Origin: Mycobacterium sp. Marseille-P9652
GTDB lineage: Bacteria > Actinomycetota > Actinomycetes > Mycobacteriales > Mycobacteriaceae
Assembly (NCBI RefSeq): GCF_902652685.1
Contig: NZ_CACRUY010000016.1
Span: 33,857 to 97,856 of the forward strand
Length of the DNA stretch: 64,000 nt
Reading direction: 5' to 3'
The notes beneath the pieces were generated by a model. That model made no database searches and was not told where the DNA came from. It was given only the letters and a program-made list of their open reading frames with translations. The position numbers were made by a program, and so were the translations under genes. This document shows, in pieces, positions 1 to 38,706 of the stretch (positions are counted from its first letter, which is position 1; every line of letters begins with the position of its first letter).

Positions 1-3000
1 GGACTGGCCGGAGCTCAGCTCGCCGCTGGCGTGCAGTATCCATACGCCGGACTGGCCGCCGGTACGCGAATGGACGCTGAACGCACGCCGCCCGGTATCC
101 CCGGCGGATAGCACGGCGATCTGCAGATCGGTGGGCGCACCCTCCGCCAACCTCAGGGGGGCGTGCAAAACGAGTTCGTCGATCACCGGACAGCCGGCGT
201 ACTCGGCGGCCTGCAGCACGACATCGATAAACCCGGTGGCGGGAAAGAGGACGGTGTCGTGCACTTGATGGCCGCGTAGCCAGGCCTGGGTGGCCGTCGA
301 CAACCGACCGGTCAACACGACCTGGTCCTGGTCGGCAAGGTCGATCACCGCACCGAGCAGCGGATGCTCGGTAGGGTCCTGGCCGAGCCCGGACGCGTCG
401 CCGGCCGGGGCCGGGTTCAGCCAGAAGCGGCGATGTTCGAACGGGTAGGTGGGCAGCTCAACGGTGCGGGCGTGCGGATACAGGGCCGACCACGAGGGGC
501 TGTGGCCGTGGTTGTGCAGGTGGGCCAAGGTGGTGGCGAGGTTGTCTTGGTCGGGATGGTCGCGGTGCAAAGTGGTGATGACCGTTGACTGGGTCCGTCC
601 CGCGAGCTGGGCCAGGGTGTCGGTGATCGCCGGGGCCAGGACCGGGTGCGGGGACAGCTCCACGAAGGTGTGCTCCCCGGCGGCCAGTCGCTCGACCACC
701 CGGGCGTGAAATCCGACCGGCTCGCGCAGGTTGCGGAACCAGTACTCGGCGTCCATGGTGGTGGTGTCCACGGGTTCCGACAGCGCCTGTCCCACTGTGG
801 AATAGAGCGGAATACTCGAGGGCATCGGAGTCAGGTCGGCCAGCTCGTCCAGCAGCTGATTTCGGAGGGGCTCCACTTGAGACGAGTGGGATGCGTAATC
901 GACGGCGATCGAGCGGACGTGGATGCCGTCACGCTCACAGGTTGCGGAGAACCCTTCCAGCGCGTCGGGGTTGCCGCTGACGATGGTGTGTGAGGGACCG
1001 TTGATCGCGGCGATGCTCAACGCCTCACCCCAAGGCCTCAGCAGTGGTTCCAGTCGGTCGGCGCTCAGCAGCACCGATGCCATGGCACCGGTACCCCCCA
1101 ATGCGCTGAGCGCCTGACTGCGCCGCGCCACAACTTTGGCGGCGTCCGGCAGTGAAAGCACTCCGGCGATATAGGCCGCGGCGATCTCTCCCTGAGAGTG
1201 GCCGATCACTGCATCGGGGACGATCCCGCAGCGCTTCAACACTTCGGCTAGCGAGACCATCATCGCGAACAGCACCGGCTGCACGACATCGACGCGGTCC
1301 AATGTTGGGGCCCCCGGCTCCTGACATAGAACCGCGCGTACCGACCACCCGGTCAAAGGGCGCAATGCGTTGTCACAGTCGTCGACGGCGTCGGCGAAGA
1401 CGCGGTGATGTTCGTAGAGCTCGCGGCCCATGCCGGGGTACTGGCCGCCCTGGCCGGGCAAGACGAACACGACCTTGCCGCGCGCGTGGGCCAAAAAGGT
1501 GTGACTGGTCAGCTGCGGATGAGTTTGGCCGGCGCGCAGCGCATCCAGGGCGTCCAACAGCTCTTTGCGTGGGTCGGCGGCGGCCGCCGGCGCGGTGATC
1601 ACCGCTCGATAGGGGTGATGGGTGCGAGTGGTGGCCAGGCTGTAGGCCACATCGTCCAAGCCCAGGTCGGGCAGGCCGCTGAGGTGGCGGTGCAGCCGGT
1701 CGGCCTGCGCGCACAACGCGGCGGGGGAGCGCGCCGAAATCGGCCACAAGAGCCCGGCCTCGACGCGGGTTTCCCCGGCCGCGTGTTCGGCCTGCGGGGC
1801 GGGGGCTTGTTGCAGGATCAGGTGGGCGTTGGTGCCGCTGATCCCGAACGAGGACACCCCCGCCGTGCGGGGATGATCGGTGGCCGGCCATGCCACCGGC
1901 TCGGTGAGTAGGCGAACGGTGCCGGACGACCAGTCGATGTGCGGGTTTGGGCGCTCGACGTTGAGGGTCGGGGGCAAGGTGTCGTGGTTCAGGGCCTCGA
2001 CTATCTTGATCATCCCGGCCACGCCGGCGGCGGCCTGGGTGTGGCCGATATTGGATTTGATCGACCCCAACCACAACGGGTGCCCGGCACTGTGGGCGGC
2101 GCCGTAGGTGGCGATCAGGGCACGCGCCTCGATCGGGTCACCCAACGTGGTGCCGGTGCCGTGAGCCTCGACCACATCCACCTCGTCGAGGCCGATTCCG
2201 GCGTTGGCCACGGCCTGGGCGATGACGCGTTGCTGGGCCAGCCCGTTGGGCGCGGTCAAGCCATTGGAGGCGCCGTCCTGGTTGATCGCCGAACCGGCGA
2301 TCACTGCGAACACCTGGTGGTGGTTTTGTTGGGCATCGCTGAGTCGTTCCAGGACCAGTACGGCGGCCCCCTCACCCCAGCCGGTGCCATCGGCGTTGGC
2401 GGAGAACGCTTTACACCTACCGTCGGCGGCCAGCCCGCGTTGGCGGGCGAACTCGGTGAAAATCGTCGGGGTGGTCATCACCGTCACGCCACCGGCCAGC
2501 GCCAGGCTGGACTCTCCCTTGAGTAACGACTCACACGCCCAATGCGCGGCCACCAGCGATGACGAGCAGGCCGTGTCCACGGTGACAGCGGGACCCTGCA
2601 GCCCGAACGCGTACGCGACACGGCCGGAGATCACGCTGGTGGATGAACCGGTCAGGCCATAGCCCTCCGCACCGTCGGAACCACCGGCGCCGTAGGTTTG
2701 CGACCACGCTCCGACGAACACCCCGGTGTCCGAGCCCGCCAACGTGGTGGGATCGATGCGGGCGCTTTCCAACGCTTCCCAGCACACCTCGAGCAGCATT
2801 CGCTGTTGAGGGTCCATGGTTTGGGCCTCGCGCGCCGAGATCCCGAAGAAGTCGGCGTCAAAGCCGGCGACGTCGGCCATGAAACCGCCGGCCCGCGCGT
2901 AGGTCTTGCCGACCGCGTCGGGGTCGGGGTCGAACAGGTCCGCCAGGTTCCAGCCGCGGTCGGAGGGAAAGTCGCCCATTGCGTCGGTGCCGCCAGCCAC

Positions 3001-5199
3001 CAGATCCCACAGTGCCGCCGGCGAATTCACCCCGCCGGGGAAGCGGCACGCCATCCCCACCACGGCGATCGGCTCGTCCACGCGCGCTTGAGCACCCGCC
3101 GGCGCAGCGGCCGAGGCGGGGCCGGTGAGCAACTGACTCAGCCGGGTGGCCAACTCGTCGGGGGTGGGGTAGTCGAAGGCCAGGGTGGGCGGTAACTCCA
3201 GTTCGGTAACGGCTTTCAGCCGGTCAATCAACTCGGTCACCTTCACCGAGTCGAAACCCAGGTCCTTGAATGTGAGCTCGGGATCGAGGTCCTGAGGGCT
3301 GGCTTGGCCCAGCACCTTTGCCGCCTGCGCGCACACCTCTTTCACAAGCATGTCGTGTTGCTGCTGACGCAGGGTGCGAAGTCGTTGGGCCAATCCCGAG
3401 TCGGCGAGCGCGGCGGCGCCTGCGTCATCAGCGTCTTGCTGCTCCGGCGCGGGAGTCGTCCCGTCGATGCGGGTGAACTGATCGTGCATGTACAGCTGTA
3501 GGCAGTCCCTTCGCCTGACCTTGCCGCTAGTGGTCAGGGGGATCGAACCCTGTTGCACCAGAACGAGATCCGCCACGCTCAGACCGTGCGCCCGCGAAAT
3601 CGCGGCGGTGATTTCACGCCTGAGGGTAATGATCCTGCGAGCGGCCGCCTCGTCGGGCTCGTCCCGCTTCTTGACTTCGACGATTGTGACCAGCTGCTCG
3701 GCGCCGTCATCGCCCGCAACCGCAATGGCCACGCAGCGGTTATGCGTGATCTCCTGGATCGTTTCCTCGATGTCGTCGGCGGGGTAGTTGCGCCCGTAGA
3801 CGATCAGAAGATCTTTGATCCGGCCGACGATGAACAGCTCCCCCTGAGAAACGAAGCCCAAGTCTCCGGTTCTCAGCCAAGGGCTCTCGGGTGTGCCGGC
3901 CGACGCACCGACCAGCGTTGCGCCGAAGGTGCGTTGGGTTTCCTCGGGCTTCTGCCAATAGCCGGCTGCGACGTTGTCGCCATGCACCCAGATCTCACCG
4001 ACCGTTCCGTCCGGCAGCTCGGAACCGGTGTCGCGGTTGACGATGCGCACCATCGGTGACGGCGGCACGCGGTAACTGACTAGCGGCGTGCCGTCGCCGT
4101 TCGCGGACCGCTCCGCAAGGCCGGCGGTCAACTTCTCGGCTTCGAACCAAACGCTGGCCGGTTCTCGACCCCACCGGCCGGTGGCCACGTACACCACGGC
4201 CTCCGCCAGCCCATACGAGGGCCGGATCACTTCGGGGCGGAGATTGAACTGAGCGAAGCGCTCCGAGAACCGCCGCAGCGTCGCGGGCTGCACGCGTTCA
4301 CTCCCGTTGATGATGGCGTGCACACCGCCAAGGTCCAGCCCTGCCATGTCGTCGTCCGACGTTTTCCGCACCGCCAATTCGAAGGCAACGTTCGGCGCTG
4401 CCGTGAACACGCGACTTCTGCTTGCCAGCAATTGCATCCAGCGCGCCGGCCGCTGCAGGAAGGACACGGGGCTCATCATCACGCAGTGATTTCCGCCCAG
4501 AACCGGCATGACGGTTCCCAATACCAAGCCCATGTCATGAAACAGGGGTATCCACTGCACCAAGGTGGTGTCCGGCGGGGTAATCCCTCCGTGCTCTGCG
4601 AAGAGATCGGCCGTCAACTGTTCGTAATTCACCCGAATGTTTCTGTGCGAGATCATCACTCCCGCGGGTATCCGTGTCGACCCGGACGTGTATTGCAAAT
4701 GCGCAATGCTGGGCGGGTCATCGATCTCGACAGCGGACACCATCTCGGAGTCCAGGTCCAGCAGATCAAGCTCGATGACTGACGGTGCAGCCTCGCCCGG
4801 CTTCGAAAAGATGTGGTCGGCGAGGCTGCCTGCGACGGAGGACGTGGTCAGGATGGCGGCAGGCGACGCGTCACGCAGGACAGCGCCGACTCGCTCATCG
4901 GCGGCGCCGCCCAGCGGTTCCGACAGCGGAACCGCGATCATCCCGGCCTCCAACGTGCCCAGAAACGCGGCGACGTAGTGGAGTCCTTGGGGCGCCGATA
5001 TCACGACGCGGTCACCGGTTGATCCGCAAGACCTCAGCTCGCGTGCGACGTTGAGCGTTCGCCGATACAACTGCGACCACGTCAGGGTTTCCGCGGCGCC
5101 GGCCCAGTCCTGCTCGTAATTGAGAAAGGTATACGCGGTCTCGCTGGGTCGTAGCTTCGCGTGCTTCCGCAGCGCCGCCGGGATGGAAGGCTCGGTCAC
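1..5199 (-). CDS. FAAL-ACP-KS-AT-DH polyketide synthase, partial (C-terminus outside window)
   Basis: This protein activates a fatty acid as acyl-AMP, loads it on its own ACP and extends it. Visible order over 1733 residues: fatty acyl-AMP ligase (about 1-585, with [12 protein letters not shown] and YGLAEA), ACP (DLGFDS, phosphopantetheine Ser about 651), KS (about 715-1140, VDTACSSS, Cys about 878), AT (about 1250-1560, GHSQGE, Ser about 1335, then YASH) and the start of a DH (about 1600 onward). YASH at the AT specificity position is the methylmalonyl-type signature, so a methyl branch is expected. The DH motif reads [10 protein letters not shown], with Asp where the usual HxxxGxxxxP has Gly. 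The GTG at 5199 is chosen because an in-frame stop lies about 50 bases upstream and no other start intervenes; no clear ribosome site is seen. The gene is divergent from the TylF gene. ER, KR and final ACP would lie beyond the edge. The FAAL-PKS class is certain; the acid loaded is unknown. Confidence 0.93.
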
Positions 5200-5592
5200 A
5201 GCGGCAGGCCAGCGTGAAACAGGTGGGCCTTGGCGCCACAGGGCCCTTCGTTATCCATGCGACGTTTTGACCGCACCGCGCGCTCACCCGGCAGCCCTTC
5301 GACAGGGCAAAAGCCGTCGGTGTGCCGCACGATCACCAACCTTGGAAGAAGAGGACGGTTCTTCGAGTCGGGGAATTATTACACAGCTGTCCAACGCGTT
5401 GGGTATCTTGGCGAATCATTACGTCATCGCCGCAGGCTTGGGAGTCCTCGCTGTCTGGGCTGTCCAACAGCCGACGGATGGCACCGCGGAGCGATCGGCG
5501 GTGAGCGCAAGAACCTGGACATCGCCTCGTGGCTTCCGCGCCAAAGCGGAGGTGCAAGAGACCGCGTCAGTCGAGCGTCGGAAGGTGAGTAC
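5200..5592. promoter_or_regulatory. Divergent intergenic region between FAAL-PKS and TylF genes
   Basis: This 393-base region has no convincing gene. Two perfect palindromes abut each other: ACAGCTGT at 5383-5390 and CCAACGCGTTGG at 5391-5402. The second contains the core AACnnGTT also present in the operators upstream of the PKS and mbtH genes. A relatively AT-rich patch (5370-5425) surrounds them and could hold promoters for both directions. Open frames across this region are short and have no recognisable domain. Confidence 0.45.
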
Positions 5593-6717
5593 GTGAGGGT
5601 AGTCGACAGTCGGAAGTCGTATAGGCCGGCGGCGGTCGATCGGGCGAGTCTTCACCGTGTGTGGCAAGCGATGCTTGTCGGCAGCGCGATCGCCGTGGCT
5701 GTCGCGTGTTATTTCGCGCCCGTGGTACTCGTCGTGCTCGGCGTGCTTGTGCTGCTGCTTGTCGGTGCTCGCTTGGCTTATCCGGGTCGCGACCGTTACA
5801 TCCCCAACTTATATGCCCGGGACACCAGGGTTTATGACGATGCCTATCGCGCATTCATCGCGCGCACGCTCAAGGACATCCGGCGGTGCAAAATTCGTGG
5901 CCACACGTTGTTGTGGGAAGCAAGGCGACTGCCGGAACCGAGCCGCCAGAATTCCGACGAATTGTTTCTCGATTTGGGCGTCTGGCTCGGCTGGTCGACG
6001 AGGCTGACATCTGACGCTTCGGGCCGCCAGGTATACGGCTTCGATACCTTCGAGGGTCTTGTCGAAGACTGGCAAGTCGACGACCAGATGCTTATCAAGC
6101 GTGGCAGCTTCTCGCTATCGGAACCGCTCGCCAAGCGTTCCATGCGGGACACCGGCGTGAGCCTGCGCGACGGGATACCCGCGGAGCTCGGTCGCAAGGT
6201 CCAATTCATCAAGGGAAGCACCTACGAGACACTGACCCCGTTCTTGGCCGACCGGCCGGCCTGCCCGATTCGGCTCTTCCACATGGATTTGGACACCTAC
6301 GAGAGTTGCCTGCACGCCTTGGAAACATGCAAGGACCGATTCGTCGAAGGATCGATTCTTGTCTTTGACGAATACCTTGTCACGAACGCCGAAATGCGGG
6401 CATTTTTCGAGTTTCAAGACAAGTACGAGCTGGAATGGCGATATCGGGCCTGGGGGCTCGAAATCATGGAGATGAACCTCGAGATGGTCGTCTCGCGGTG
6501 GAAGCGCGCGGCGTACTACGTCATGTGGATCGCAGCGTATTGGTTGGCGGGCGACGGCAGCTATGTGTGGAAGTTCTTCGGCAGACGGTTCTGGCGATTC
6601 TGGCTGGGTGCACCGATCGGCGACATCCTTTTCATACTTGGCGCTGCCGGGCAACGGAAATCGGTAAGCCTGGAAATCACCGGTCTGGGTAAGTTGGGCC
6701 GGACATCCCCACGATGA
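5593..6717 (+). CDS. TylF/macrocin-type SAM O-methyltransferase with membrane anchor
   Basis: A 374-residue protein. The core (about 110-300) is TylF-like: LFLDLGVWLGWSTR as the SAM-binding region, VYGFDTFEGL, and HMDLDTYESC followed by VFDEY, the metal-site acidic motifs of this family. TylF enzymes methylate sugar hydroxyls, and related enzymes methylate rhamnose in mycobacterial glycopeptidolipids, so a sugar on the lipopeptide is the likely substrate. A hydrophobic stretch at about residues 20-52 looks like one or two membrane segments. An aromatic-rich hydrophobic tail follows the catalytic core, so the enzyme is probably membrane-bound. GTG 5593 is preferred because GGAAGG lies at 5580-5585; the frame stays open upstream without a good start. 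Its stop overlaps the start of the glycosyltransferase (ATGA), implying translational coupling and a shared job. Confidence 0.85.
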   Translation: MRVVDSRKSYRPAAVDRASLHRVWQAMLVGSAIAVAVACYFAPVVLVVLGVLVLLLVGARLAYPGRDRYIPNLYARDTRVYDDAYRAFIARTLKDIRRCKIRGHTLLWEARRLPEPSRQNSDELFLDLGVWLGWSTRLTSDASGRQVYGFDTFEGLVEDWQVDDQMLIKRGSFSLSEPLAKRSMRDTGVSLRDGIPAELGRKVQFIKGSTYETLTPFLADRPACPIRLFHMDLDTYESCLHALETCKDRFVEGSILVFDEYLVTNAEMRAFFEFQDKYELEWRYRAWGLEIMEMNLEMVVSRWKRAAYYVMWIAAYWLAGDGSYVWKFFGRRFWRFWLGAPIGDILFILGAAGQRKSVSLEITGLGKLGRTSPR

Positions 6718-7982
6718 AATTTGTACTCGCGAGCTGGGGAAGCCGCGGCGACGTCGAACCGATCCTCGCGGCGGGCCGCGAGCTGGTGCGCCGCGGGCAC
6801 GAGGTCTGCATGGCCGTGCCGCCGGACCTGGTGGGCTTCACGCAATCGGTCGGAGTCGAGGCCGTCGGCTTCGGCCCCGAGGCGCAACCCATTCTGGACG
6901 CGCACCGCGAATTCTGGACCCACTTCTTCAGCCGCCCCTGGCGGATCCGGGACTTGGTTAGGTCGCGGCTCGAAGTCTCCGCACCCCTGCTGCGCGCGTG
7001 GCAGGAGATGAGCACGACGCTGTTGTCGCTGGCGGACGGGTCTGACCTGATATTCACCGGCATCAACTTCGAGGATGCCGCCGCCAACATCGCCGAGTAT
7101 TACGGCATTCCGCTCGCCACCTTGCATTACTTCCCGCTGCGGCCGAACAGCCAGACCCTGCCGCTACTGCCGGCGCGAATGGCGCGCGCGGCGGTTACGG
7201 CATATTGGTGGGTCTCGTGGCAAGCGACAAAGAAGGTCGAGGAAGCCCAGCGCCGCGACCTCGGACTGCCAAAGGCGAGGGGACCGGCGGCACGGCGAAT
7301 CACTGAACGAGGATCTCTGGAGATCCAGGCCTACGACGAGGCGTTCTATCCCGGCCTGGCCGGCGAATGGGCGGGGTATAAACGTCAACGTCCATTTGTT
7401 GGCGCGCTCACCCTCGGGTTGGCCACGGATGCCGATGAGGACGTCGCATCCTGGATCGCCGCGGGTACGCCTCCGATTTATTTCGGCTTCGGCAGCACCC
7501 CGCTCGCATCTCCGGCCGACACAATCGCGATGATCGGCGCGGCCTGCGCGGAGTTGGGTGAGCGGGCGCTGGTGGGCGCCGCCGGAGCCGACTTCAGCGG
7601 CGTCCGTACTCCTGACCATGTCAGGGTGGCGGGCGCGGTGAATTTCTCGTCCGTCTTTCCCGCGTGCCGCGCGGTTGTGCACCACGGGGGCACGGGCACC
7701 ACGTCGATGGGCCTGCGCGCCGGCATCCCCACCCTGGTTCTCCCGACGGATATCGATCAGACGCTCTCCGGATCCAGGGTCAAACGGCTCGAGGTGGGCA
7801 CCGCACGACGGTTCTCGAGAACGACCAAAGAATCGCTCGTGGCGGATCTGCGCACCATTCTCGCCCCGGAATATGTCGCCCGTGCGCGCGAGCTTGCCAC
7901 CCGGATGACCGACCCCGCCAAAAGCGTCGCTGCGGCCGCCGACCTTCTCGAGGATTTCGCCCGCTCGCGCCGCATTAGCTGA
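6714..7982 (+). CDS. GT1-family glycosyltransferase (Rtf/Gtf-like)
   Basis: A 422-residue GT-B enzyme that should move a sugar from a nucleotide donor to a lipid or peptide hydroxyl. The N-terminus (FVLASWGSRGDVEPILAAGR) is the typical acceptor-domain start of the family that includes glycopeptidolipid glycosyltransferases and the ericlosyl/vancosaminyl-type enzymes. The donor-binding motif HHGGTGTTSMGLRAGIP is at about residues 323-339. The start ATG overlaps the TylF stop. With two Thr-like adenylation domains downstream, Thr side chains are plausible acceptors. The sugar cannot be read from sequence. No second glycosyltransferase and no sugar-biosynthesis genes are in the window, so either one sugar is added or other genes lie to the left. 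Confidence 0.88.
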   Translation: MKFVLASWGSRGDVEPILAAGRELVRRGHEVCMAVPPDLVGFTQSVGVEAVGFGPEAQPILDAHREFWTHFFSRPWRIRDLVRSRLEVSAPLLRAWQEMSTTLLSLADGSDLIFTGINFEDAAANIAEYYGIPLATLHYFPLRPNSQTLPLLPARMARAAVTAYWWVSWQATKKVEEAQRRDLGLPKARGPAARRITERGSLEIQAYDEAFYPGLAGEWAGYKRQRPFVGALTLGLATDADEDVASWIAAGTPPIYFGFGSTPLASPADTIAMIGAACAELGERALVGAAGADFSGVRTPDHVRVAGAVNFSSVFPACRAVVHHGGTGTTSMGLRAGIPTLVLPTDIDQTLSGSRVKRLEVGTARRFSRTTKESLVADLRTILAPEYVARARELATRMTDPAKSVAAAADLLEDFARSRRIS

Positions 7983-8076: not shown

Positions 8077-8112
8077 TATGGTCTAGAACTTGTTGTACCC
8101 ATGTTCAGTAGA
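8077..8112 (+). repeat. Duplicated 36-bp leader, copy 1 (upstream of PKS)
   Basis: This block and the one at 20358-20393 agree at 34 of 36 positions by eye; the differences are C/T at 8083 and G/A at 8095. Similarity continues, more weakly, through a ribosome site (GGGAGA here, GGGAGG there) and into the first codons of mbtH. It is therefore a duplicated promoter/leader and not a short chance match. Confidence 0.9.
8084..8097 (+). promoter_or_regulatory. KstR-like TetR operator candidate, site 1
   Basis: TAGAACTTGTTGTA fits the published KstR consensus TnnAACnnGTTnnA at every fixed position. The left half-site TAGAAC is the canonical one; the right half GTTGTA is less symmetric than the ideal GTTCTA. 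It lies about 30 bases upstream of the mbtH-remnant start and 98 bases upstream of the PKS ATG. Binding by KstR itself is inference; another TetR protein could use the same core. Confidence 0.5.
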
Positions 8113-8126
8113 TCGGGAGACGCAGG

Positions 8127-8194
8127 TTGAGCAGCAATCCGTTCGAACGCAGCGGCACTCTTTTCTTCTTCGTCCGGACGATGGGCGGCAGGAA

Positions 8195-8198
<4 letters not shown>
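8127..8198 (+). pseudogene. mbtH 5' remnant forming a 23-codon leader ORF
   Basis: TTG 8127 with GGGAGA six bases upstream opens a 23-codon frame beginning LSSNPFERSGTLFFFV, which matches the N-terminus of the intact MbtH at 20409 ([16 protein letters not shown]). The start contexts also match at DNA level: TTGAGCAGCAATCCGTTCGA against GTGAGCATCAATCCGTTCGA. The similarity then stops and the frame ends in a TGA sharing bases with the PKS start (ATGA, 8195-8198). It lacks the rest of MbtH, including NDEEQxSLWP, so it cannot serve as an MbtH. It may now act only as a coupled leader peptide for the PKS. Confidence 0.75.
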
Positions 8199-19162
<10,964 letters not shown>

Positions 19163-20393: not shown

Positions 20394-20408
20394 CGGCCGG
20401 GAGGCTCT

Positions 20409-20633: not shown

Positions 20634-20680
20634 GGCGCCCCGACGAGGACTGCCAAGAGGACATTGAGCAGGTAGGCCGA

Positions 20681-23600: not shown

Positions 23601-25231
23601 TCTACGCCCAGGTGCTCGGCCTCGAGCGCGTCGGCGTCGACGAGTCGTTCTTCGAGCTGGGCGGGGACAGCATCCTGTCGATGCAGGTGGTCGCGCGGGC
23701 GCGGGCCGCCGGTGTCGTGTGCCGCCCGCGGGACATCTTCGTCGAGCAAACCGTCGCCCGGCTGGCCCGGGTCGCCGGGGTGGCCACCGGCGACGCCGAC
23801 ACGGGCGACGACGGGCTCGGTCCGCTGATCGCGACGCCCATCATGTGCTGGCTGCGCGGCGTCCGGGGCCCGGTCGATCAGTTCAACCAGACCGTGCTGC
23901 TGCAGGCTCCCGCCGGGGTGACCGAGGCCGATGTGGTGGCGCTGCTGCAGGCCCTCCTGGATCGGCACCCCATGCTGCGGCTGCTCGTCGACGAGGACGC
24001 CGGCGGCTGGTCGCTGACCGTGCCCGAGGTCGGGTCGGTGGATGCGGTGACGTGCCTGCGCACGGTGCAGGCGCTGTCCGACGAGGCCGTGATCGAGGCG
24101 CGCTCGCGCCTGGACCCGGCGGCGGGGGCGATGCTCAGCGCCCTGTGGGTGGTCCCTACGGGCCAGCTCGTGTTGATCGCCCACCACCTGGCCGTCGACG
24201 GGGTGTCCTGGCGCATTCTCCTGGAGGATTTGAACATCGCCTGGGCGCAGCGGCGCGCCGGGCAGCAGCTCGTGTTGCCGGCCGGCGGGACGTCGTTCGG
24301 GCGGTGGGCGTCGACGCTAGCGGAGCACGCGCGCCACCCGGACGTCGTGGAACAGGCGCCGCGGTGGCGTCAGCTGGCGACGGTGCCCACGGTGCTGCCG
24401 CCGGCGGGAGTGGATACGTTCGCTGACGCCGGGCAGCTGTCGGTGGAGCTGGATGCCGAGACGACCCGCCATCTCCTCGGCGACGTGCCCGCGGCTTTCC
24501 ATGCCGGCATCCACGACGTCCTGCTGATCGCGTTCGCCCTGGCGCTGGGGGAGTTCCTGGGCACCGGTGGGGCGCCCATCGCCATTGACGTGGAGGGTCA
24601 CGGGCGCGAGGAGGATCTGGCCGGCCCGGACGAGCACCTGGACCTGTCGCACACCGTCGGGTGGTTCACCACCAAGTACCCGGTCGCGCTGGGCGTGGGT
24701 GGCCTGGATTGGGCCCAGGTCGGCGCGGGGGCCGCCGCACTGGGGTCGCTTGTCAAGGACGCCAAGGAGCAGCTCCGGGCCCTGCCCGACGGCCTGACCT
24801 ACGGACTGCTGCGTTACCTGAACCCGGATGTGGACCTGCCGGACTCGGAGCCGTCGATCGGCTTCAACTACCTCGGGCGCCTGGGCGCCGGGACCGAGGC
24901 CTCGGGCGACGCGTGGCGGCTCTCCTCCGATGGCGGGTCGGTCGCGCGCGTCGCCGCGGCCATCGCCATGCCGCTGACGCACACGGTGGAGCTGAACGCG
25001 GGCACCGTGGACACCGACGCCGGCCCGCGGCTGCGCGCCGGTTGGACGTGGGCGCCCTCGGTCCTCGACGAGGGGCAGGTCAGCCGGCTGAATCGGTTGT
25101 GGTTCGACGCGCTCGCCGGAATCTGCGCGCACGTGCAAGGCGGTGGGGGCGGGTTGACGCCCTCCGACATCGCCGTCGGACTGAGCCAGCAGCAGATCGA
25201 CGAGCTCCAGCGGCAGTATGCGGATAGCTGA
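20681..25231 (+). CDS. NRPS 1: C-A-PCP-E (first amino acid, epimerised)
   Basis: A 1516-residue synthetase. C domain (about 7-440, HHMIIDG), A domain (about 455-960, [11 protein letters not shown], core FDVSVCEIW), PCP (LGGDSI, Ser997) and E domain (about 1050-1497, [13 protein letters not shown]). A leading C domain with no loading module before it fits acylation of residue 1 by the PKS chain. Pocket residues read by hand against GrsA give DVCSIALVHK; Cys at the third position is unusual and I do not assign a substrate. The E domain predicts a D residue. ATG 20681 has GAGCAGG upstream; TTG 20630, overlapping the mbtH stop, and ATG 20699 are alternatives. The C-terminus ends abruptly after the E domain and overlaps NRPS 2 by 14 bases in another frame. 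Confidence 0.95.
22040..25170 (+). repeat. A-PCP-E module repeated in NRPS 1 and NRPS 2, copy 1
   Basis: The A-PCP-E stretch of NRPS 1 is closely matched by A3-PCP3-E of NRPS 2 (32940-36090). Shared segments include [19 protein letters not shown] and [15 protein letters not shown], and both end with [11 protein letters not shown]. This points to module duplication or gene conversion. Confidence 0.75.
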
Positions 25232-28200: not shown

Positions 28201-31200
28201 CGGCGATGCGCCTGATCGCCGCCGTCAACAACGCCCTCGACGCCAGCCTCTCGGTGCGGACACTGTTCGAGGCCCCGTCCGTCGCGCAACTGGCGCCACG
28301 CATCGGTGGCGACGGGGACCGGCTCGAGCCGCTGGTGGCAGGCGAGCGGCCCGAGGTGGTGCCGTTGTCGTTCGCGCAGAGCCGGTTGTGGTTCATCGAC
28401 CAGTTCCAGGGCCCGTCGGCGACCTACAACATGGCGGTGGCGTTGCGGTTGCGCGGAGGGCTGGACGCCGACGCGCTGGGAGCGGCGCTGGCGGACGTGG
28501 TCGAGCGGCAGGAGAGCCTGCGCACCCTGTTCGGCGCGCACGACGGGATACCGTGCCAGCTGGTGGTCCCGCCCGAGCGGGCCGACTTCGGCTGGGCCGT
28601 CGCGGACGCCACCGGCTGGCCGGAGGGCCGGCTCGGGGAGGCCATCGACGCGGTGGCGACCCACGTGTTCGACCTCGCGACCGAGGTGCCCATGCGAGCG
28701 AGGCTGTTCCGCCTCGGCGCGGACGAGCACGTGCTGGTGGCCGCGGTGCACCACATCGCCGCCGATGGCCTGTCGATCGCGCCCCTGGTGCGCGACCTCG
28801 GCGAGGCCTATGCCAGTCGCTGCGCGGGGCGCGCCCCGGACTGGGCGCCGCTGCCGGTCCAGTACGTCGACTACACGCTGTGGCAGCGGGCGCAGCTCGG
28901 GGATTTCGGCGACAGCGGCAGCCGCATCGCCGCCGAGCTGGCCTACTGGCAGGACGCCCTCGCCGGCATGCCCGAGCACCTGCAGCTGCCGACCGACCGG
29001 CCCTACCCGCCGGTCGCCGACCACCGCGGCGGCAGCGTGGTGGTCAACTGGCCGGTCGAGCTGCAGCGGCAGGTGACCGCGGTGGCGCGCAAGCACAACG
29101 CGACCAGCTTCATGGTGTTCCAGGCCGGGCTGGCGGTGCTGCTCGCCAAGCTCAGCGGCAGCTCCGACGTGGCCGTCGGCTTCCCGATCGCCGGGCGCCG
29201 CGATCCCGCCCTGGACGACCTGGTCGGGTTCTTCGTCAACACGTTGGTGCTGCGCGTCGACGTGGCCGGGGATCCCACCGTCGCCGACGTTTTGGCCCAG
29301 GTGCGGCAACGCAGCCTGGCCGCCTACGAGCACCAGGACGTGCCGTTCGAGGTGCTGGTCGAGCGGCTCAACCCGGCCCGCAGCCTGACCCATCACCCGC
29401 TCGTTCAGGTCATGCTGTCCTGGCAGGACTGGCACGCCACCGGTCCCTTCGACCCCGCCGTCGGGCTGACCCTCGGGGACCTGCAGGTCACCCAACTGCC
29501 GCTCGATACCCGCACCGCGCGCATGGACCTCGCGTTCTCGATGGGCGATTTCAACACCACGTCCGGCGAGCTCGCCGGGATCGGCGGGGTGGTGGAGTTC
29601 CGCACCGACGTGTTCGACGAGGCGAGCATCGAAGCGCTGCTCGAACGCTTCAAGCGGGTGTTGACCGCGATGACGGCCGACCCGGCGCGGCGGCTCTCCT
29701 CGATCGATGTGCTCGACGCGCAGGAGCGCGCCCGCCTGGACGAGATGGGCAACCGCGCACTGCTGAACCGGCCCGCACCGGCGCCGGTGTCCGTCCCGGC
29801 CTTGTTCGCCGCTCAGGTGGCCCGCGTCCCGGACGCGGTCGCCGTGACCGACGGGGACGGGACACTGACGTACCGGGAGCTCGGCGAGGCGGCCGACCGG
29901 TTCGCGCGGCTGCTGCGCGGCCGCGGGGTCGGCCCGGGCGCGCGGGTCGCGCTGCTCCTGGAACGCTCGGCCGAGGCGGTCGTGGCGATGCTGGGGGTGC
30001 TCAAGGCCGGGGCGGCCTACCTGGCGATCGATCCGGCGCTGCCGTCGGCCCGCATGCAGTTCATGCTCGACGACGCCGCGCCGGTCGCCGTGGTCACCAC
30101 CGCGGCGCTGGCCGACCGGCTGGGCGGGTGCGGCGCCGCGGTCATCGACATCGACGATCCGTCGGGGGAGACCCACGACGTCTCCCCGCTGCCGGTGCCC
30201 GACCCCGCCGACGTCGCCTACCTGATCTACACCTCCGGCACTACGGGGACCCCGAAGGGCGTGGCCATCGCGCACCGCAACCTGGCCCACCTGGCCGACT
30301 CGACACCCGCCGAACTGCCGTCGCCGCAGGTGTGGACGCAGTGTCACTCGTACGCGTTCGACTTCTCGGTGTGGGAGATCTGGGCCGCCCTGCTGGGCGG
30401 CGGGCGGCTGGTCGTGGTGCCGGACGCCGTCGTCGGCTCCCCGGCGGACTTTCACGATCTGCTGGTTCGCGAGCGGGTCAACGTGCTCACCCAGACGCCG
30501 TCGGCGGTGACGGCCCTCGATCCCGAGGGGCTGGAGTCGGTGGCGCTGCTCCTGGGCGGTGAGGCGTGCTCGGCCGAGGTGGTCGACCAGTGGGCCTCGG
30601 GCCGGGTCGCGATCAACGCCTACGGCCCCACCGAGGCGACCGTGTACGCGTCGATGAGCGCGCCCCTGACGTCGGGGTCGGTCGGCGGCGGCGTCGCGCC
30701 CATCGGCGCACCCGTGGCGACGACCGCGCTGTTCGTGCTCGACGAGTGGCTCCGCCCGGTGCCCACCGGTGTCGTGGGAGAGCTGTACGTGGCGGGCCGC
30801 GGCGTGGGCGTCGGCTATCTCGGCCGGCCGGGCCTGAGCGCGTCGCGCTTCGTGGCCTGCCCGTTCGGCGGCTTCGGCGAGCGGATGTACCGCACCGGCG
30901 ACCTGGTGCACTGGCGGGCCGACGGGCAGCTCCAATACCTGGGCCGCGCCGACGAGCAGGTCAAGATCCGCGGGTACCGCGTCGAACCCGGCGAAATCCA
31001 GGCCACGCTCGCCGGCCTGGACGGCGTCCGGCAGGCGGTGGTGATCGTTCGCGAGGACCGCCCCGGCGACAAGCGGCTGGTCGGCTATGTCACCGGCACC
31101 GCCGAGCCGGCCAAGCTGCGCGCGGCGCTGGCCGAACGACTGCCGCCGTACATGGTGCCCGCCGCGGTGGTGGCGCTGGACGCGCTCCCGCTGACGGTCA

Positions 31201-34200
31201 ACGGCAAGCTCGACAAACGCGCCCTGCCGGCGCCGGAATATTCCGACACCGGTCGCTACCGGGCCCCGAGCACTCTCACCGAGGAGATCCTGACCGGCAT
31301 CTACGCCCAGGTGCTCGGCGTCGAGCGTGTGGGCGTGGACGACTCCTTCTTCGACCTGGGCGGCGACTCGCTGTCGGCGATGCGACTGGTCGCCGCCGTC
31401 AACACCGCGCTGGAGACCGGTCTCTCGGTGCGCGCCGTGTTCGAGGCCCCGACGGTCGCTCAGCTCGCGCCCCGGATCGGCGGGGACGAGGGCCGGCTGC
31501 AGCCCCTTCGGGCGGGCGAGCGGCCCGCGATGGTGCCCCTGTCGTTCGCCCAGAACCGCTTGTGGTTCATCGACCAGCTGCAGGGCCCGTCGCCCATCTA
31601 CAACCTTCCGGTGGCGTTGCGGTTGACCGGACACCTCGACGCCGACGCGCTGGGCGCGGCGCTGGCCGACGTTGTGGCCCGCCAGGAAAGTCTGCGCACG
31701 CTGTTCCCCGCGGTCGAGGGAGTGCCGAGGCAGGTGGTGGTCCCCGCCGACCGGGCCGACTTCGGCTGGGAGGTCGTCGACGCCACCGACTGGCCGGAGG
31801 GCCGGCTGGCCGAGGCCATCGACGCCGTGGTGCGGCACTCCTTCGATCTCGCGACCGAGATCCCCATGCAGGCACGGCTTTTCCGCGTCGGCGAGGACGA
31901 GCACGTGTACGTGTCGGTGGTGCACCACATCGCCGCCGACGGGTGGTCGATCGCCCCGCTGGTCAACGACCTCGGAATCGCCTACGCCAGCCGGTGCGCC
32001 GGGCGGGCCCCGCACTGGGCCGACCTGGCGGTGCAGTACGTCGACTACACGCTGTGGCAACGGGAGCAGCTGGGCGACCTCGGCGATGCCGGCAGCCGCA
32101 TCGCCGCGCAGCTCGGCTACTGGCAGGACGCCCTGGCCGGCATGCCCGAGCAACTGGCGCTCCCGACGGATCGGCCGTACCCGCCGGTCGCGGACTACCG
32201 CGGCGCCACCGTGACCGTCGACTGGCCCGCCGAGCTGCAGCAGCGCATCGCCGACGTGGCCCGCGAGCACAACGCGACCAGCTTCATGGTGCTGCAGACC
32301 GCCCTGGCGGTGCTGCTGTCGAAGCTCAGCGCGAGCAGCGACGTCGCGGTGGGATTCCCGATCGCCGGACGCCGCGACGCCGCGCTGGACGAGCTGGTGG
32401 GCTTCTTCGTCAACACCCTGGTGCTGCGGGTCGACCTGGCCGGTGACCCCCTGGTCGCGGACCTCATCGCGCAGGTGCGCCGGCGCAGCCTGGCCGCCTA
32501 CGAACACCAGGATGTGCCGTTCGAGGTGCTGGTCGAGCGGCTCAGGCCGACCCGCAGCCTCACCCATCACCCGCTGGTCCAGGTATTGCTGGCCTGGCAG
32601 AACTTCGCCTGGCAGAACACCGAAGCCGCCGGCATGGCACTGGGCGATCTGCGGGTGACGCCGCTGCCGGTGGACACCCACACCGCCCGGATGGACCTCA
32701 CCTTCACCCTCGCCGAGCGGTTCACCGAGACCGGTGAGCCCGCCGGAATCGGCGGGCTGGTCGAGTTCCGCACCGACGTGTTCGACGCGGACACCGTCCG
32801 GACCCTGATCGAGCGGTTCGAGCGGGTGCTCATGGCGATGACCGCCGACCCGCAACGTCGGGCGGCGTCGATCGACGTGCTGGACACCGACGAGCACGCC
32901 CGCCTGGCGGGCTGGGGTAATCGGTCGGTGCTCACCCGGGCGGCGGGCGCGCCGGGCTCGATCCCGGCGATGTTCGCCGCGCAGGTCGCGCGCACCCCCG
33001 ACGCGGTGGCGGTGAGCGGCGAGGGCCGCTCGATGACCTACCGGGAACTCGGCGACGCGGCGGATCGGCTGGCGGCCGTCCTCGCCGGCCACGGTGCCGG
33101 ACCGGGGCAGCGGGTGGCGCTGCTGTTGCCCCGCTCGGTGGAGGCGGTCGTGGCGATGGTGGCCGTGGCGAAGACGGGGGCGGCCTACGTGCCGATCGAC
33201 CCGTCGGTGCCCGCGGCCCGCATGCGCTTCGTGCTCGCCGACGCCGCGCCGGCCGCGGCCATCACCACGGCGGCCCTGCGGTCCCGCCTGGACGAGCACG
33301 ACCTGCTGATCATCGACCTCGACGACCTCGACGGGCAGGCGCCCACCGGCACCACGGTGACGGGGCCGCATCCCGACGACGTCGCCTACATCATCTACAC
33401 GTCGGGCACCACGGGCACGCCGAAGGGCGTGGCGATTCCGCACCGCAACGTGACGTGCCTCCTGGAGACGCTGGACGCGGACGTCGAGTTGGCGGGCCAG
33501 GTGTGGTCGCAGTGTCATTCGCTGGCGTTCGACTTCTCCGTCTGGGAGATCTGGGGGGCGCTGCTCTACGGCGGGCGGCTGGTGGTCGTGCCCGATGCGA
33601 TCGTCCGGTCCCCGGAAGACCTGCGCGCCCTGCTGGTGACCGAGCAGGTCACCGTGTTGAGCCAGACGCCGTCGGCGTTCTACGCCCTGCAGACCGCCGA
33701 CGGGTTGCAGCCCGAGCTCGGGCAACAACTCAAGCTCGAGGTGGTGGTTTTCGGCGGCGAGGCGCTGGAGCCGCAACGGCTGCGGGCGTGGCGCGACCGC
33801 CACCCGGGGCTGCCGCGGCTGATCAACATGTACGGCATCACCGAGACGACCGTGCACGCGTCGTTCCGCGAGATCGTCGACGACGACGTCGACAACGGCG
33901 TGAGCCCCATCGGGGTGCCGCTGGCTCACCTGGGGTTCTCGGTGCTCGACACGTGGCTGCAGCCGGTGCCCGTCGGGGTGGTCGGCGAGCTCTACGTCGC
34001 GGGCGCGGGGCTGGCGGACGGCTATGTGGGTCGGGCGGGTCTGACGTCGACGCGCTTCGTGGCGTGCCCCTTCGGGGGGCCGGGGGCGCGCATGTATCGC
34101 ACGGGCGACCTGGTGTGTTGGGGCGCCGACGGGCAGTTGCGTTACCTGGGCCGCGCCGACGAGCAGGTCAAGATCCGCGGGTACCGCATCGAGCTGGGCG

Positions 34201-37200
34201 AGGTCCAGGCGGCACTGGCCGCGCTGGACGGTGTGCGGCAGGCGGTCGTCATCGCCCGCGAGGACCGCCCGGGCGACAAGCGGCTCGTGGGCTATGTGAC
34301 CGGGACCGTCGACGCGGGCGAGGCGCGTGCCGCGCTCGCCGAGCGGTTGCCGGCCTACATGGTCCCGGCGGCCGTCGTGGCCATCGACGCGGTGCCGTTG
34401 ACCGTGAACGGCAAGCTCGACACCCGCGCGCTCCCGGCGCCGGAATACTCCGACGCCGATCGCTATCGCGCCCCGGCCACCCCGGTCGAGGAGGTGCTGG
34501 CCGGCATCTACGCCGCGGTGCTGGGACTCGAGCGCGTCGGGGTCGACGAGTCGTTCTTCGAGTTGGGCGGCGACAGCATCCTGTCCATGCAGGTGGTGGC
34601 GCGGGCGCGCGCCGCCGGGGTGATCTGCCGGCCGCGCGACATCTTCGTCGAGCAGACCGTCGCCGGTTTGGCCCGGGTGGCCGAGGTGTCCGACGGCCGT
34701 CCGGTGGTGATCGACGAGGGCGTCGGCCCGGTGGGGACCACCCCGATCATCTCGTGGCTGCGCAGCGTCGACGGACCGATCGGCGAGTTCAACCAGACGA
34801 TGCTGGTCCAGGCCCCGGTGGGAGTGACCGAGGCCGACGTAGTGGTGGTGGTGCAGGCCCTGCTGGACCGCCACCCCATGCTGCGGCTGCGCGTCGCCGA
34901 CGACGGCGCCGATGGGTGGCACCTGACGGCGCCCGCGGCCGGCTCGGTCGACGCCCGCGCGTGCGTGCACGCGGCCGACGTCCTATCCGACGCGACCGTG
35001 GCGGAGGCGCGCGCACGGCTGGACCCGGCGGCCGGGATGATGCTCAGCGCGCTCTGGGTGGCCGCCACCGGCCGGCTGCTGCTGATCGTGCACCACCTGG
35101 CCGTCGACGGCGTGTCGTGGCGGATCCTGTTGGAGGATCTGAACCTCGCCTGGGCCCAGCACCGGGGCGGCCAACAGGTGGTGTTGCCCGCGGGCGGCAC
35201 CTCGTTCCAGCGGTGGGCGTCGCTGCTGGCCGAACACGCGCGCCACCCCGAGGTCGTCGCGCAGGCGGACGCCTGGCTGGAAATCGCCGGCGTGCCCGCG
35301 GCGCTCCCGGCGGTGCAACCGGCGGTCGACACCTACGCGACCGCCGGCAACCTTTCGGTGGAGCTCGATCCCGAAACGACGCGGATGCTGCTCGGTGAGG
35401 TGCCAACGGCGTTCCACGCCGGGGTCAACGACATCCTGCTGATCGCCTTCGCCCTCGCGTGCGCGGAGTTCCTCGGCACCGATGCCCCCATGGTCATCGA
35501 CGTCGAAGGCCACGGTCGACAGGAGGACGTGGCACCGGACGTCGACCTGTCGCGCACGGTCGGGTGGTTCACCACGAAATATCCGGTCGCTCTGGACGTC
35601 GGGCGGCCCGGCGGCGGGCTCGCCTGGGCGCAGGTGCTGGGCGGCGAGGCCGCGCTCGGGGCCGTCGTCAAGGACGCCAAGGAGCAGCTGCGCGCGCTGC
35701 CCGACGGGCTGACCTACGGCCTGCTGCGCTATCTGAACGACGACGTCGAACTGCCCGCGACGGACCCGGCGATCGGGTTCAACTACCTGGGGCGGCTCGG
35801 CGGTACGGGCGCCGGCGCGTCCGGGGACATCTGGGAGATCCGCCAGGACGGCGCCGCGGTCGCCGGCATTGCCGCCGCCGTCCCGATGCCGCTGATGCAC
35901 ACGGTCGAGCTCAACGCCGGCACGGTGGACACCGATACGGGACCGCGGTTGCGCGCGGGGTGGACGTGGGCGCCCTCTGCCCTCGACGACGCACAGGTCG
36001 GCCGGCTGAGCCGGTTGTGGTTCGACGCCCTGGCCGGCATCTGCGCGCACGTGCGTTCCGGTGGGGGCGGGCTGACGCCGTCCGACATCGCGCCCGCCCG
36101 CCTGAGCCAGCGGGAGATCGACGGGCTGTGCCGCCGCTATCCCGTCGCCGACGTGCTGCCGCTGACCCCGTTGCAGCAGGGACTGCTGTTCCACGCCGGC
36201 ACCGCGCGGGGCGGCGACGACGTCTACGCGGTGCAGCTCGACATCACGGTGAGCGGCCGGCTCGACCCGCACCGCCTGCGCGGGGCCGTCCAGACCGTGG
36301 CCACCCGGCACCCGCAACTGACGGCCCGGTTCTGCTCTCAGTACGAGGAGCCGGTGCAGGTCATTCCGGCCGACCCCGAAGTGCCCTGGCGGTACATCCA
36401 GCTCGACGACGGCGATATCGACGAGCAGGTCCGGCGGGTATGTGCCGAGGAGCGCGCCGCCGTCTACGACCTCGCCGAGCAGCCGGCGTTCCGCGCGGCG
36501 CTGATCCGCACCGCCGAAGACCAGCACCGGTTCGTCCTGACCAACCACCACATCGTGCTCGACGGGTGGTCGCTGCCGATCCTGCTGCAGGAGGTCTTCG
36601 CCGGCTATTACGCGCACTGGCTGCCGGCGGCCGTCCCGTACCGCAGGTTCATCACCTGGCTCGCCGCCCGTGACCGGGCCGCCGCCCGGACCGCCTGGGG
36701 CGAAGTGTTCGCCGGCTTCGGCCACCCGACTCTGGTGGGGCCGCCGGACCCGTTCGGGACGGGGCCGCGGGACACGGCCACGTTCCTGGTTCCCCGGCCG
36801 CTCACCCGGGCGCTCGGCGAGTTGGCGCGCACCCGCCAGACCACCGTCAGCACCGTCCTCCAAGCCGCCTGGGCGCAGCTGCTGACGTGGCTCACCGGGC
36901 AGGACGACGTCGCCTTCGGCGCCGTCGTCTCGGGTCGGCCCGCCGACCTGCCGGGCGCGGACTCCATGGTCGGCCTGCTGATCAACACGGTGCCGGTGCG
37001 CGCCACCGTCGGCCCGTCGACCACCACCGCCGAGCTACTCGACCAGATCCAAGGCGTCCACAACCGCACCCTCGACCACCAGCACCTCGGTCTCAGCGAG
37101 ATTCACCGGATCACCGGGCAGCGACGACTTTTCGACACCGTCTTCGTCTACGAGAACTACCCCGCCGACCCCGACGCGTTGTCGGGCGGCGACGGGCTGA

Positions 37201-37772
37201 CCATCACCGGCATCAGCAACCGCGACCTCTACCATTACCCGCTCACGGTCCAGGCCGTGCCGGGCCAGGAGCTGGCCCTGCACGTCCAGTACCGCACCGA
37301 CGTGTTCGACGCGTCCGACATCGCCACCCTCGTCGAGCGCTTCCAGCAAGTGCTCGACGCCATGGCCTCCGACCCGGCGCGACCGCTGTCGGCCGTCGTC
37401 GGGCCGGAAGAGGGTAAACACGCCCTGCCGGCGACGGCCCCGCCGCGCGCCGCCGCGCCGGCCGTCGCGCACCACACGAACGGGGCCGGTGAGCATCCCC
37501 CGGCCGGCGTGATCGAGCAGATCCTCACCGGGATCTACGCCCAGGTGCTGGGTGTCGAACGCGTCGCTCCCGGGGAGTCGTTCTTCGACCTGGGTGGCGA
37601 CTCGTTGTCGGCCATGCGGGCGATCGCCGCCATCAACTCGGCCCTGGCCGTGGACCTTCCCGTTCGCGTCCTGTTCGACGCGCCCTCGGTGCAGGACCTG
37701 GGCCGGCGGTTGGACGGGCAGGTCGGGTCGGTGGAACAGGTCCCCGCCGTCGGCCCGGCGAACGAGCTGTGA
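25218..37772 (+). CDS. NRPS 2: C-A-PCP-C-A-PCP-C-A-PCP-E-C-PCP
   Basis: A 4184-residue synthetase adding residues 2-4. Domains: C1 (4-430, NHHLVLDG), A1 (450-950), PCP1 (Ser993), C2 (1048-1495, HHIAADG), A2 (1510-2008), PCP2 (Ser2051), C3 (2105-2555), A3 (2575-3075), PCP3 (Ser3120), E (3171-3625, [13 protein letters not shown]), C4 (3638-4058, NHHIVLDG), PCP4 (Ser4129). Hand-read pockets: A1 DFWSVGMVHK, A2 DFWSLGAVYK, A3 DFWSVGMVHK. A1 and A3 differ from the known Thr code DFWNIGMVHK only at N/S and I/V, so Thr (D-allo-Thr after E at position 4) is likely; A2 is unassigned. C1 follows an E domain and resembles C4, both expected to accept D donors. The last module has no A domain and there is no thioesterase or reductase. 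ATG 25218 lies inside the end of NRPS 1. Confidence 0.95.
32940..36090 (+). repeat. A-PCP-E module repeated in NRPS 1 and NRPS 2, copy 2
   Basis: Partner of 22040-25170. The following C4 domain (36130-37390) likewise matches C1 (25230-26520): both carry [14 protein letters not shown] and the segment [11 protein letters not shown]. The A1 domain (26560-28070) is also very similar to A3, with the same pocket residues. Confidence 0.75.
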
Positions 37773-37781
37773 GAGAACCCG

Positions 37782-38456
37782 TCACCACATGAGCGGAACC
37801 AGGCGGTAGCGAACCTTCTGCGTGTACTCGCTGTAGCCGCTCAATTCGTGGCGGAGCAGCCTCTCCTCGTCGCGGATGCGCGAGGCCAACACGATCACTC
37901 CGGGTACCACGAAGACGAGTCCCCAGTAGGAGCCGAGCGCGAGGGGGATGCCGATCATCATGATCACGTTGCCGGTGTACATCGGGTGTCGCACCATCCC
38001 GTACAGGCCGGTGGACACCACCGTCTGACCCTGCTCCACCCGCACCGTGGCGGCGGCATAGCTGTTCTGGACGATCACGAGGCCGACGATGCCCAACCCG
38101 ACGGCCACCAGCACGTCGCCGACCAGGCAGATCGGCGGCGGTGCCGGTGCCCAGCCGAACCGATGGTCGAGGGCGCTCACGACCACCATCGCCGCCAGCG
38201 ACAGGTACAACCCGGCGATGACGACCTTCTGGGCCGTGCGGCCCTCCGCGGCCGGGCCTCCGCGCATCCGCCTCTCCAGGGCGGCGGGATTCGCTCGCAA
38301 CAGGTAGACGGCCGGAAGCCACGCGGCAACACCGACCACCGCCAGGAAAACCCAGCCCTGCCAGTAATCGAACGTGCCGGCGGGGAGAAACACCATGGAA
38401 CCGAACACGACGAGCTCGACGAGACCGAACACCAGCATTCTGGGAATGGCCTTCAC
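37782..38456 (-). CDS. Isoprenylcysteine carboxyl methyltransferase (ICMT)-family membrane protein
   Basis: A 224-residue integral membrane protein with about four to five hydrophobic segments. It has the ICMT/phospholipid-methyltransferase C-terminal signature: RHPMYTGN, then EERLLRHELSGYSEYTQKVRYRLVP. Family members use SAM to methylate carboxylates or lipid head groups within the membrane. GTG 38456 is chosen because AAGGAGG lies a few bases upstream. It converges on NRPS 2 with only nine bases between stops. As the NRPS has no release domain and several mycobacterial lipopeptides end as methyl esters, a role on the peptide C-terminus is possible but purely inferred; such proteins are also common in actinobacteria outside biosynthetic loci. 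Confidence 0.85.
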   Translation of the reverse strand: MKAIPRMLVFGLVELVVFGSMVFLPAGTFDYWQGWVFLAVVGVAAWLPAVYLLRANPAALERRMRGGPAAEGRTAQKVVIAGLYLSLAAMVVVSALDHRFGWAPAPPPICLVGDVLVAVGLGIVGLVIVQNSYAAATVRVEQGQTVVSTGLYGMVRHPMYTGNVIMMIGIPLALGSYWGLVFVVPGVIVLASRIRDEERLLRHELSGYSEYTQKVRYRLVPLMW

Positions 38457-38706
38457 TCGTCCTCCTTCGCCGGGCTGGTTCGACCTCTTCGCCGCCAACG
38501 GGCGCGACGCCCGAAAGCAGATTGGCGTCGACGCCGCGCCGATCACCTGACCCGACAGCGACGCGGATTGAAACTACCGCCGCCGGGCCAGCCAAATTCA
38601 GCAAAACATAGATATACACGTGTGCAACGGGATAGGTTCGACTCGCTCATACAAGTGACCGTGGTCGGGGGGCGGCGTTGCGCCGCGACGGCTTCGGAGG
38701 TCAGCA

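Follow-up and report, generated by a model that had tools for sequence, protein, structure and literature searches.

A conserved mycobacterial PKS-NRPS locus with a terminal condensation-thiolation didomain beside an ICMT-like gene, predicted to make a glycosylated acyl-tetrapeptide methyl ester

The stretch of DNA analysed here (the window) is 64,000 nucleotides long and belongs to the 5.7-Mb mycobacterial genome of Mycobacterium sp. Marseille-P9652, in which one 16S rRNA match was found; it covers positions 33857-97856 of contig NZ_CACRUY010000016.1 (C16). Its left part carries a biosynthetic locus in which a fusion of a fatty-acid-AMP ligase and a polyketide synthase (FAAL-PKS, reverse strand) is followed by a TylF-type methyltransferase, a family 1 glycosyltransferase (GT1), a two-module PKS, a second methyltransferase (reverse strand), an MbtH-like protein, two nonribosomal peptide synthetases (NRPS1 and NRPS2) and, on the reverse strand, a protein resembling isoprenylcysteine O-methyltransferase (ICMT). 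All these genes, including the NRPS part with four adenylation (A) domains, had been listed in an original prediction, which placed at positions 1 to 38546 a locus for a surface-located, glycosylated acyl-tetrapeptide, and all of them were found (Table 1). The main subject of this work is the end of the NRPS line and the ICMT-like gene beside it.

One A domain is contained in NRPS1 and three in NRPS2, with two epimerization (E) domains in total, and the line finishes with a condensation (C) and a thiolation (T) domain. Neither a thioesterase (TE) nor a reductase (Re) was listed by Pfam in NRPS1 or NRPS2 (E <= 0.001). In the terminal C domain the HHxxxDG motif is intact, and the partner T domain keeps its serine; in a 33-row tree, where the bootstrap had not settled and a long-branch warning was given, this C domain groups with the C domains that follow an E domain. 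The ICMT-like protein passed the Pfam model of ICMT (PF04140, 39.9 against 24 bits) as well as the PEMT model (PF04191, 43.8 against 25), gave a profile match to the solved ICMT of PDB 4A2N (E value 1.8e-12) and fell below the cut-off of the NCBIfam isoprenylcysteine O-methyltransferase equivalog (42.6 against 160 bits). Its alignment contains an invariant RHPMY motif and a DEE stretch.

Table 1. Features of the locus in window coordinates (ACP, acyl carrier protein; AT, acyltransferase; DH, dehydratase; ER, enoylreductase; KR, ketoreductase; KS, ketosynthase; ORF, open reading frame; SAM, S-adenosylmethionine).
Feature	Position	Strand	Domains and remarks
FAAL-PKS	1..5199	-	window part FAAL-ACP-KS-AT; cut by the window edge
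TylF-type O-methyltransferase	5230..6717	+	PF05711, 35.6 vs 23 bits; ORF start uncertain, homology from about 5680
GT1 glycosyltransferase	6714..7982	+	EryCIII-like_C, 60.5 vs 31.7 bits
Two-module type I PKS	8090..19162	+	KS-AT-KR-ACP-KS-AT-DH-ER-KR-ACP
SAM methyltransferase	19173..20033	-	resembles fatty-acid O-methyltransferase Mtf2 and phthiotriol methyltransferase, scoring under the equivalog cut-off of each
MbtH-like protein	20382..20633	+	PF03621, 100.7 vs 27 bits
NRPS1	20681..25231	+	starter C-A1-T-E; longest ORF begins at 20483
NRPS2	25218..37772	+	C-A2-T-C-A3-T-C-A4-T-E-C-T
Terminal C-T didomain of NRPS2	36135..37772 (left edge approximate)	+	without A, TE or Re
ICMT-like membrane-type methyltransferase	37782..38546	-	convergent with NRPS2; likely start near 38456

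The association of C-T and ICMT-like gene was followed in two overlapping sets of loci. The first, hand-picked from a scan of named genomes (77 loci kept; best 80 of 221 confirmed stretches), comprised 30 loci in 24 genomes, some of them chosen because an ICMT gene had already been seen; C and T domains lie beside the ICMT-like gene in 22 of the 24 genomes, in one of them 1 kb off. The second came from a genus search of 297 genomes, from which 30 loci with a 1.5-kb flank were fetched, one per top genome and the window included. A T domain was present in the flank in all 30, and C together with T in 26. Chance co-location of the ICMT gene is ruled out by these counts. Other, lower-scoring copies of the gene, which account for 7 of the 30 hand-picked loci, have neither C nor T beside them, as is the case for the second ICMT-like copy in the window's genome, and in one hand-picked locus (L106) just a T fragment was seen at the flank edge.

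The known spread of the whole locus rests on the named-genome scan. In 14 of the 77 loci (group A, which includes M. interjectum, M. helveticum, M. alsense, M. terramassiliense, M. bohemicum and M. paraense) the PKS, methyltransferase, MbtH and NRPS1 genes are shared, with identities of 74-80% for NRPS1, 77-84% for the C-terminal part of the two-module PKS and 75-86% for the methyltransferase that adjoins it. Five further loci (group B: M. iranicum, M26, BiH015, 236 and fortunisiensis) have an NRPS1 identity of 65-67%; there, the two-module PKS and its methyltransferase are not at this place, and another PKS and a FAAL lie beyond the ICMT gene. When the surroundings of 10 group A and 5 group B loci were rebuilt, TylF preceded the NRPS in 9 of the former (the tenth, G019, starts within the PKS) and 4 of the latter (it is absent in M26), and a GT1 homologue (66-69%) was found directly upstream of MbtH-NRPS in every group B locus. 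The ICMT-like gene follows the NRPS in 9/10 and 5/5 loci, respectively; the tenth group A locus (G001) stops before the NRPS end, and the ICMT gene of this genome is on another contig, with C-T adjoining. This is a conserved locus family and, since the gene order recurs across many species, not a chance assembly. A shorter arrangement was observed in M. alsense (L020, 10001-17042), where NRPS1 runs straight into the terminal C-T and ICMT, with three modules missing; it is a possible repeat collapse in the assembly or else a real short form.

The whole FAAL-PKS is 3,227 aa long (C16:29372-39055, with C16:29372-33856 falling left of the window) and consists of FAAL-ACP-KS-AT-DH-ER-KR-ACP and a C-terminal acyltransferase-like domain; it scored 915.9 bits with the fatty-acid-AMP ligase model PRK05850, whose cut-off is 775. 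The C-terminal domain (about 430 aa, HxxxDG motif; L012 72-1388, reverse strand) has no Pfam family listed. A domain of this type, fused here, is apparently stand-alone in the fortunisiensis locus. The possibility that the FAAL-PKS is merely an occasional neighbour was rejected, the C-terminal domain being present at 74-88% (best match) in 14 out of 14 genomes searched. In five group A genomes the gene is missing between the epimerase and TylF genes: in G005, G010 and G015 it was located some 18-21 kb to the left of TylF, on the contig that carries the NRPS, and in G001 and G007 on another contig. Because further copies of the C-terminal domain (70-72%) and stand-alone homologues (43-55%) are common, it is not certain that the 74-76% matches are the same gene.

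As regards the acyl chain, the AT domain of the FAAL-PKS carries the YASHS motif, which is of methylmalonyl type, and both ATs of the two-module PKS carry HAFH, which is of malonyl type. The single methyl-branched, hydroxylated chain that had been proposed is not supported, because both ATs of the two-module PKS are malonyl-type and its module 1 alone is KR-only (hydroxyl); the methylmalonyl-type AT is in the FAAL-PKS only and the hydroxyl-type module in the two-module PKS. The methyltransferase at 19173..20033 may O-methylate a PKS-made hydroxyl.

On the right, the proposed extent of the cluster is in agreement with our data: beyond 38546 there is a presumably PE-like protein, with a LipY-model match across residues 11-103, and then bioF and bioB matches, which fits a cluster boundary. 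On the left it had to be revised, as the window edge cuts the FAAL-PKS and the cluster runs on for about 33 kb, up to the contig end. The sugar genes of this flank encode a nucleotide-sugar dehydrogenase, two epimerase/dehydratase-type proteins, three further GT1-type and one GT4 glycosyltransferases; also present are two acyltransferase-3-type proteins, GFO/IDH and GMC oxidoreductases, an ABC exporter resembling DrrA and a possible sulfotransferase (27.0 bits, exactly the cut-off). Several of these genes have homologues in group B loci. No MmpL was found among the annotated cluster proteins, no search aimed at MmpL having been made. Between the FAAL-PKS and an acyltransferase-3 gene lie two mutually related proteins with no Pfam match (L009 12221-13549 and 14004-15392), whose homologues occur in M. 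interjectum, M. bohemicum and M. terramassiliense. Other NRPS stretches were observed on G000:C24 (L010/L014), where a second NRPS (T-C-A-T-C-A-T-E-C-A-MT-T-E-C-A-T-C-A...) with Leu-like, Ala-like and X-type codes runs off the contig end, and on G000:C65 (L195), where a third piece has E-C-A[DAESLGTVD]-T at its end and then a reductase-like motif.

The A domains were read as nine-position pocket codes, with positions according to GrsA numbering. The code of A1 (DVCSIALVH) describes a Thr-related pocket, here called X, A2 and A4 share the code DFWSVGMVH (Thr) and A3 has DFWTLGAVY (Leu). For calibration we used Mycobacteroides sp. LB1, whose eight A domains give codes that fit, in order, T-A-F-I-Y-L-T-T, the residues determined by NMR for GL8P, the glycosylated lipooctapeptide of M. 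abscessus (MAB_4689c-4705c), whose sugars are reported as rhamnose (PMC11978893; what is taken from this source and from the others drawn on, PMC12455991, PMC7261415, PMC5996870, PMC8103206 and PMC3537567, refers to their accessible parts). The module scan is motif-based and has misses, which in LB1 concern two C domains (modules 3 and 6) and an E domain expected after Leu6, and elsewhere A domains with an unusual motif, such as the first one of L037, which was read by eye. In a 69-row tree of A domains, A3 of the window and the Leu-type domains join LB1 Leu6 (support 100/96), and A2, A4 and the Thr types fall in a clade with LB1 Thr1/7/8 (92/97, just below the tool's star). The X (DVCS) domains lie within a 41-row clade (100/100) together with Thr-type and DVWS-type domains; no characterised relative calibrates either DVCS or DVWS, and to equate X with serine is a guess. 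The codes X-Thr-Leu-type-Thr were found in all 11 fully readable group A loci besides the window (13 tried) and in G254, and Thr-X-Leu-type-Thr in all 5 group B loci, so that residues 1 and 2 seem to have changed places between the groups. The predicted window product, as far as the codes and the E domains indicate, is acyl-D-X-L-Thr-L-Leu-D-Thr.

The LB1 locus is also informative about the chain end. Its last NRPS gene likewise has no TE or Re by Pfam and finishes with a terminal C-T as in the window. The locus carries a P450 gene on the opposite strand, MbtH, a pair of NRPS genes and an ICMT-like gene, in the order in which MAB_4693, 4692c, 4691c, 4690c and the uncharacterised 4689c are listed (PMC11978893). 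For GL8P, adding up the described parts (the residues, the N-stearoyl chain and a single rhamnose) gives C70H114N8O18 for the free acid and C71H116N8O18 for the linear methyl ester; the latter is the formula reported for GL8Pa, and GL8Pb agrees (PMC11978893). If the M. abscessus line ends in C-T as well, eight A domains account for eight residues and therefore the C-T adds none.

We propose, with a probability of about 0.6, that the product of the locus is a glycosylated acyl-tetrapeptide lipid which carries a methyl ester at its C-terminus. The PKS and FAAL enzymes would build the acyl chain or chains, and the starter C domain of NRPS1 would N-acylate residue 1; NRPS1 would add D-X, and the remaining residues, L-Thr, L-Leu and a D-Thr that is probably allo, would come from NRPS2. 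At the end of the line, where the T domain lacks an A domain of its own, the C domain would then release the chain as free acid, without adding a residue and without reduction, and the ICMT-like methyltransferase would methylate the released carboxyl. The hydroxyls would be decorated with methylated and acylated sugars by the GT1 enzymes, TylF (probably a sugar O-methyltransferase) and the acyltransferases, and the ABC exporter encoded left of the window would move the product, presumably to the cell surface. The original prediction had foreseen a different release step, which it had not specified, and the ICMT-like gene would give it concrete content in the form of the methyl ester. A wider proposal, that an A-less terminal C-T with an ICMT-like protein is an unrecognised termination device of mycobacterial NRPSs, in which C releases and ICMT caps, and that MAB_4689c is the GL8P methyl-ester synthase, seems to us about evenly balanced.

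Several observations weigh against the methyl ester. The product of the locus is a prediction from its genes. ICMT-like genes are common (237 of the 297 genomes at E <= 1e-70), with the surroundings seen for the best 30; 4 of these 30 have T but no C in the flank, T being about 1.35 kb off, at the flank edge, in two of them. Two of the 24 hand-picked genomes (G008 and G020) are without the C-T/ICMT linkage. In GA-0227b, an NRPS ending in E-C-T (DVWS-DVWS-Phe-Thr) has no adjoining ICMT gene; the next one follows a second, longer E-C-T line about 50 kb on (G330:C32 195000-290200, both lines on one contig), and perhaps this single ICMT serves both. Other loci with a similar NRPS1 identity have different codes, for instance L036, L037, L038, L048 and L061. 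As regards GL8P, the extra CH2 could sit elsewhere; the accessible part of its paper speaks of a terminal thioesterase and uses "methyl ester" once in the main text, on fatty acids (PMC11978893), and the C-T and ICMT ending of M. abscessus is assumed by analogy with LB1. Finally, a uronic acid carboxyl is an alternative methyl acceptor, because the cluster encodes a nucleotide-sugar dehydrogenase.

This last point, with the two epimerase/dehydratase-type genes and the PEMT match of 43.8 bits, speaks for an alternative that we consider unlikely, in which the tetrapeptide, though made, has a free-acid or macrolactone end and the ICMT-like protein methylates either a uronic acid carboxyl of the glycan or a phospholipid-like group. 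However, NRPS lines of differing length, the GL8P-type locus included, have the ICMT gene associated with their C-T end, and in GL8P the reported sugars are rhamnose and the formula fits the linear methyl ester, not the lactone, of the described parts (PMC11978893). Release followed by methylation is also preferred to the rather improbable addition of a fifth unit by the terminal C-T, an amino acid or amine loaded in trans, which would give a lipopentapeptide or an amide. Both domains look active from their intact motifs, as this would require, but the number of residues in GL8P, eight, equals that of the A domains in LB1, with no room in the GL8P formula for a ninth (PMC11978893), and contig C16, scanned for motifs on both strands, gave the four NRPS A domains and the FAAL, with no stand-alone A domain. 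Least probable of all are two independent side-by-side clusters (sugar/FAAL-PKS and PKS-NRPS lipopeptide) with no shared product, as the third-position GC might suggest (0.74-0.80 in FAAL-PKS, TylF and GT against 0.93-0.94 in PKS and NRPS2), since this contrast is weaker in M. interjectum (0.78-0.89 against 0.84-0.87) and homologues of the GT, dehydrogenase and epimerase genes are linked to MbtH-NRPS-ICMT in 5/5 group B loci, and TylF in 4/5, where there is no two-module PKS at this place.

On the best reading, the locus is a new variant among the mycobacterial glycolipopeptide clusters, one whose product would end in a methyl ester. Mycobacterial lipopeptides that end in a methyl ester exist besides L5P, for which such an end is already in print (PMC8103206). 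In the titles and abstract openings of the literature searched, no gene was assigned to a lipopeptide C-terminal methyl ester, and the matches listed included none on ICMT for mycobacterial lipopeptides. The papers listed for the interjectum/bohemicum locus did not include one on it either; it could be tabulated in Supplementary Data S1 of PMC11978893 (other second loci). As the ester is predicted from a conserved pair of genes, the question can be tested. Moreover, species-specific tetrapeptide glycolipids are predicted in the interjectum/bohemicum and iranicum groups and are possible species markers.

Among characterised clusters with a known product, none of the same domain order was found in the accessible sources, and the nearest is that of GL8P (PMC11978893). 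The two have in common glycosyltransferases, methyltransferases, MbtH, two NRPS genes and a last residue of D-allo-Thr type; the window shows the GL8P-type E-C-T end without TE or Re and the adjoining ICMT-like gene, and the terminal C-T is also present in LB1, taken as proxy, whose ICMT-like gene is 70% identical to the window gene. They differ in that GL8P has eight residues instead of four, the four A domains of the window being incompatible with T-A-F-I-Y-L-T-T, and in that GL8P is N-stearoylated, with MmpL/MmpS and a fatty-acid CoA ligase named, and no PKS named, in the accessible part of PMC11978893. In addition, the ICMT gene of LB1 is on the NRPS strand, whereas that of the window is convergent.

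With the classical C-type GPL system (Mps1/Mps2) the locus shares the MbtH-NRPS start, the starter C, a related Thr-type A domain, an acyl chain believed to be PKS-made and O-methylated sugars. The classical product is D-Phe-D-aThr-D-Ala-L-alaninol, made with E domains in modules 1, 2 and 3 and a terminal reductase. A classical GPL locus was rejected, since the A order is X-Thr-Leu-Thr and not Phe-Thr-Ala-Ala and there is no terminal reductase. Therefore, the view of a GPL relative distinct from the classical ones holds, as A-domain codes, module order and chain end all differ. A different release step would fit as well: the classical loci read to the end, those of M. lepraemurium (first two codes Phe-type and Thr) and M. 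triplex, both finish in T-Re, in contrast to NRPS2. No ICMT motif was found in about 39 kb of each of these two loci, and their nearest ICMT-like genes are more than 1 Mb away.

The serine-containing GPL of M. xenopi reportedly has a methyl-ester end. It resembles the predicted product in being a glycosylated, alkali-labile tetrapeptide ending in D-allo-Thr, and has the core L-Ser-L-Ser-L-Phe-D-aThr with a C12 chain (PMC7261415). The window, with X-Thr-Leu-Thr and an uncalibrated Ser code, does not correspond to this core; the DVWS-DVWS-Phe-Thr line of GA-0227b would fit these residues provided that DVWS stands for Ser, but its module 1 is followed by an E domain. Another NRPS lipopeptide with a C-terminal methyl ester is L5P, made by PstA in M. 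avium subsp. paratuberculosis, which differs in having five residues without hydroxyls and no sugars (PMC8103206). As for the ICMT of PDB 4A2N, it shares the Pfam family with the protein described here, for which the proposed substrate is a lipopeptide.

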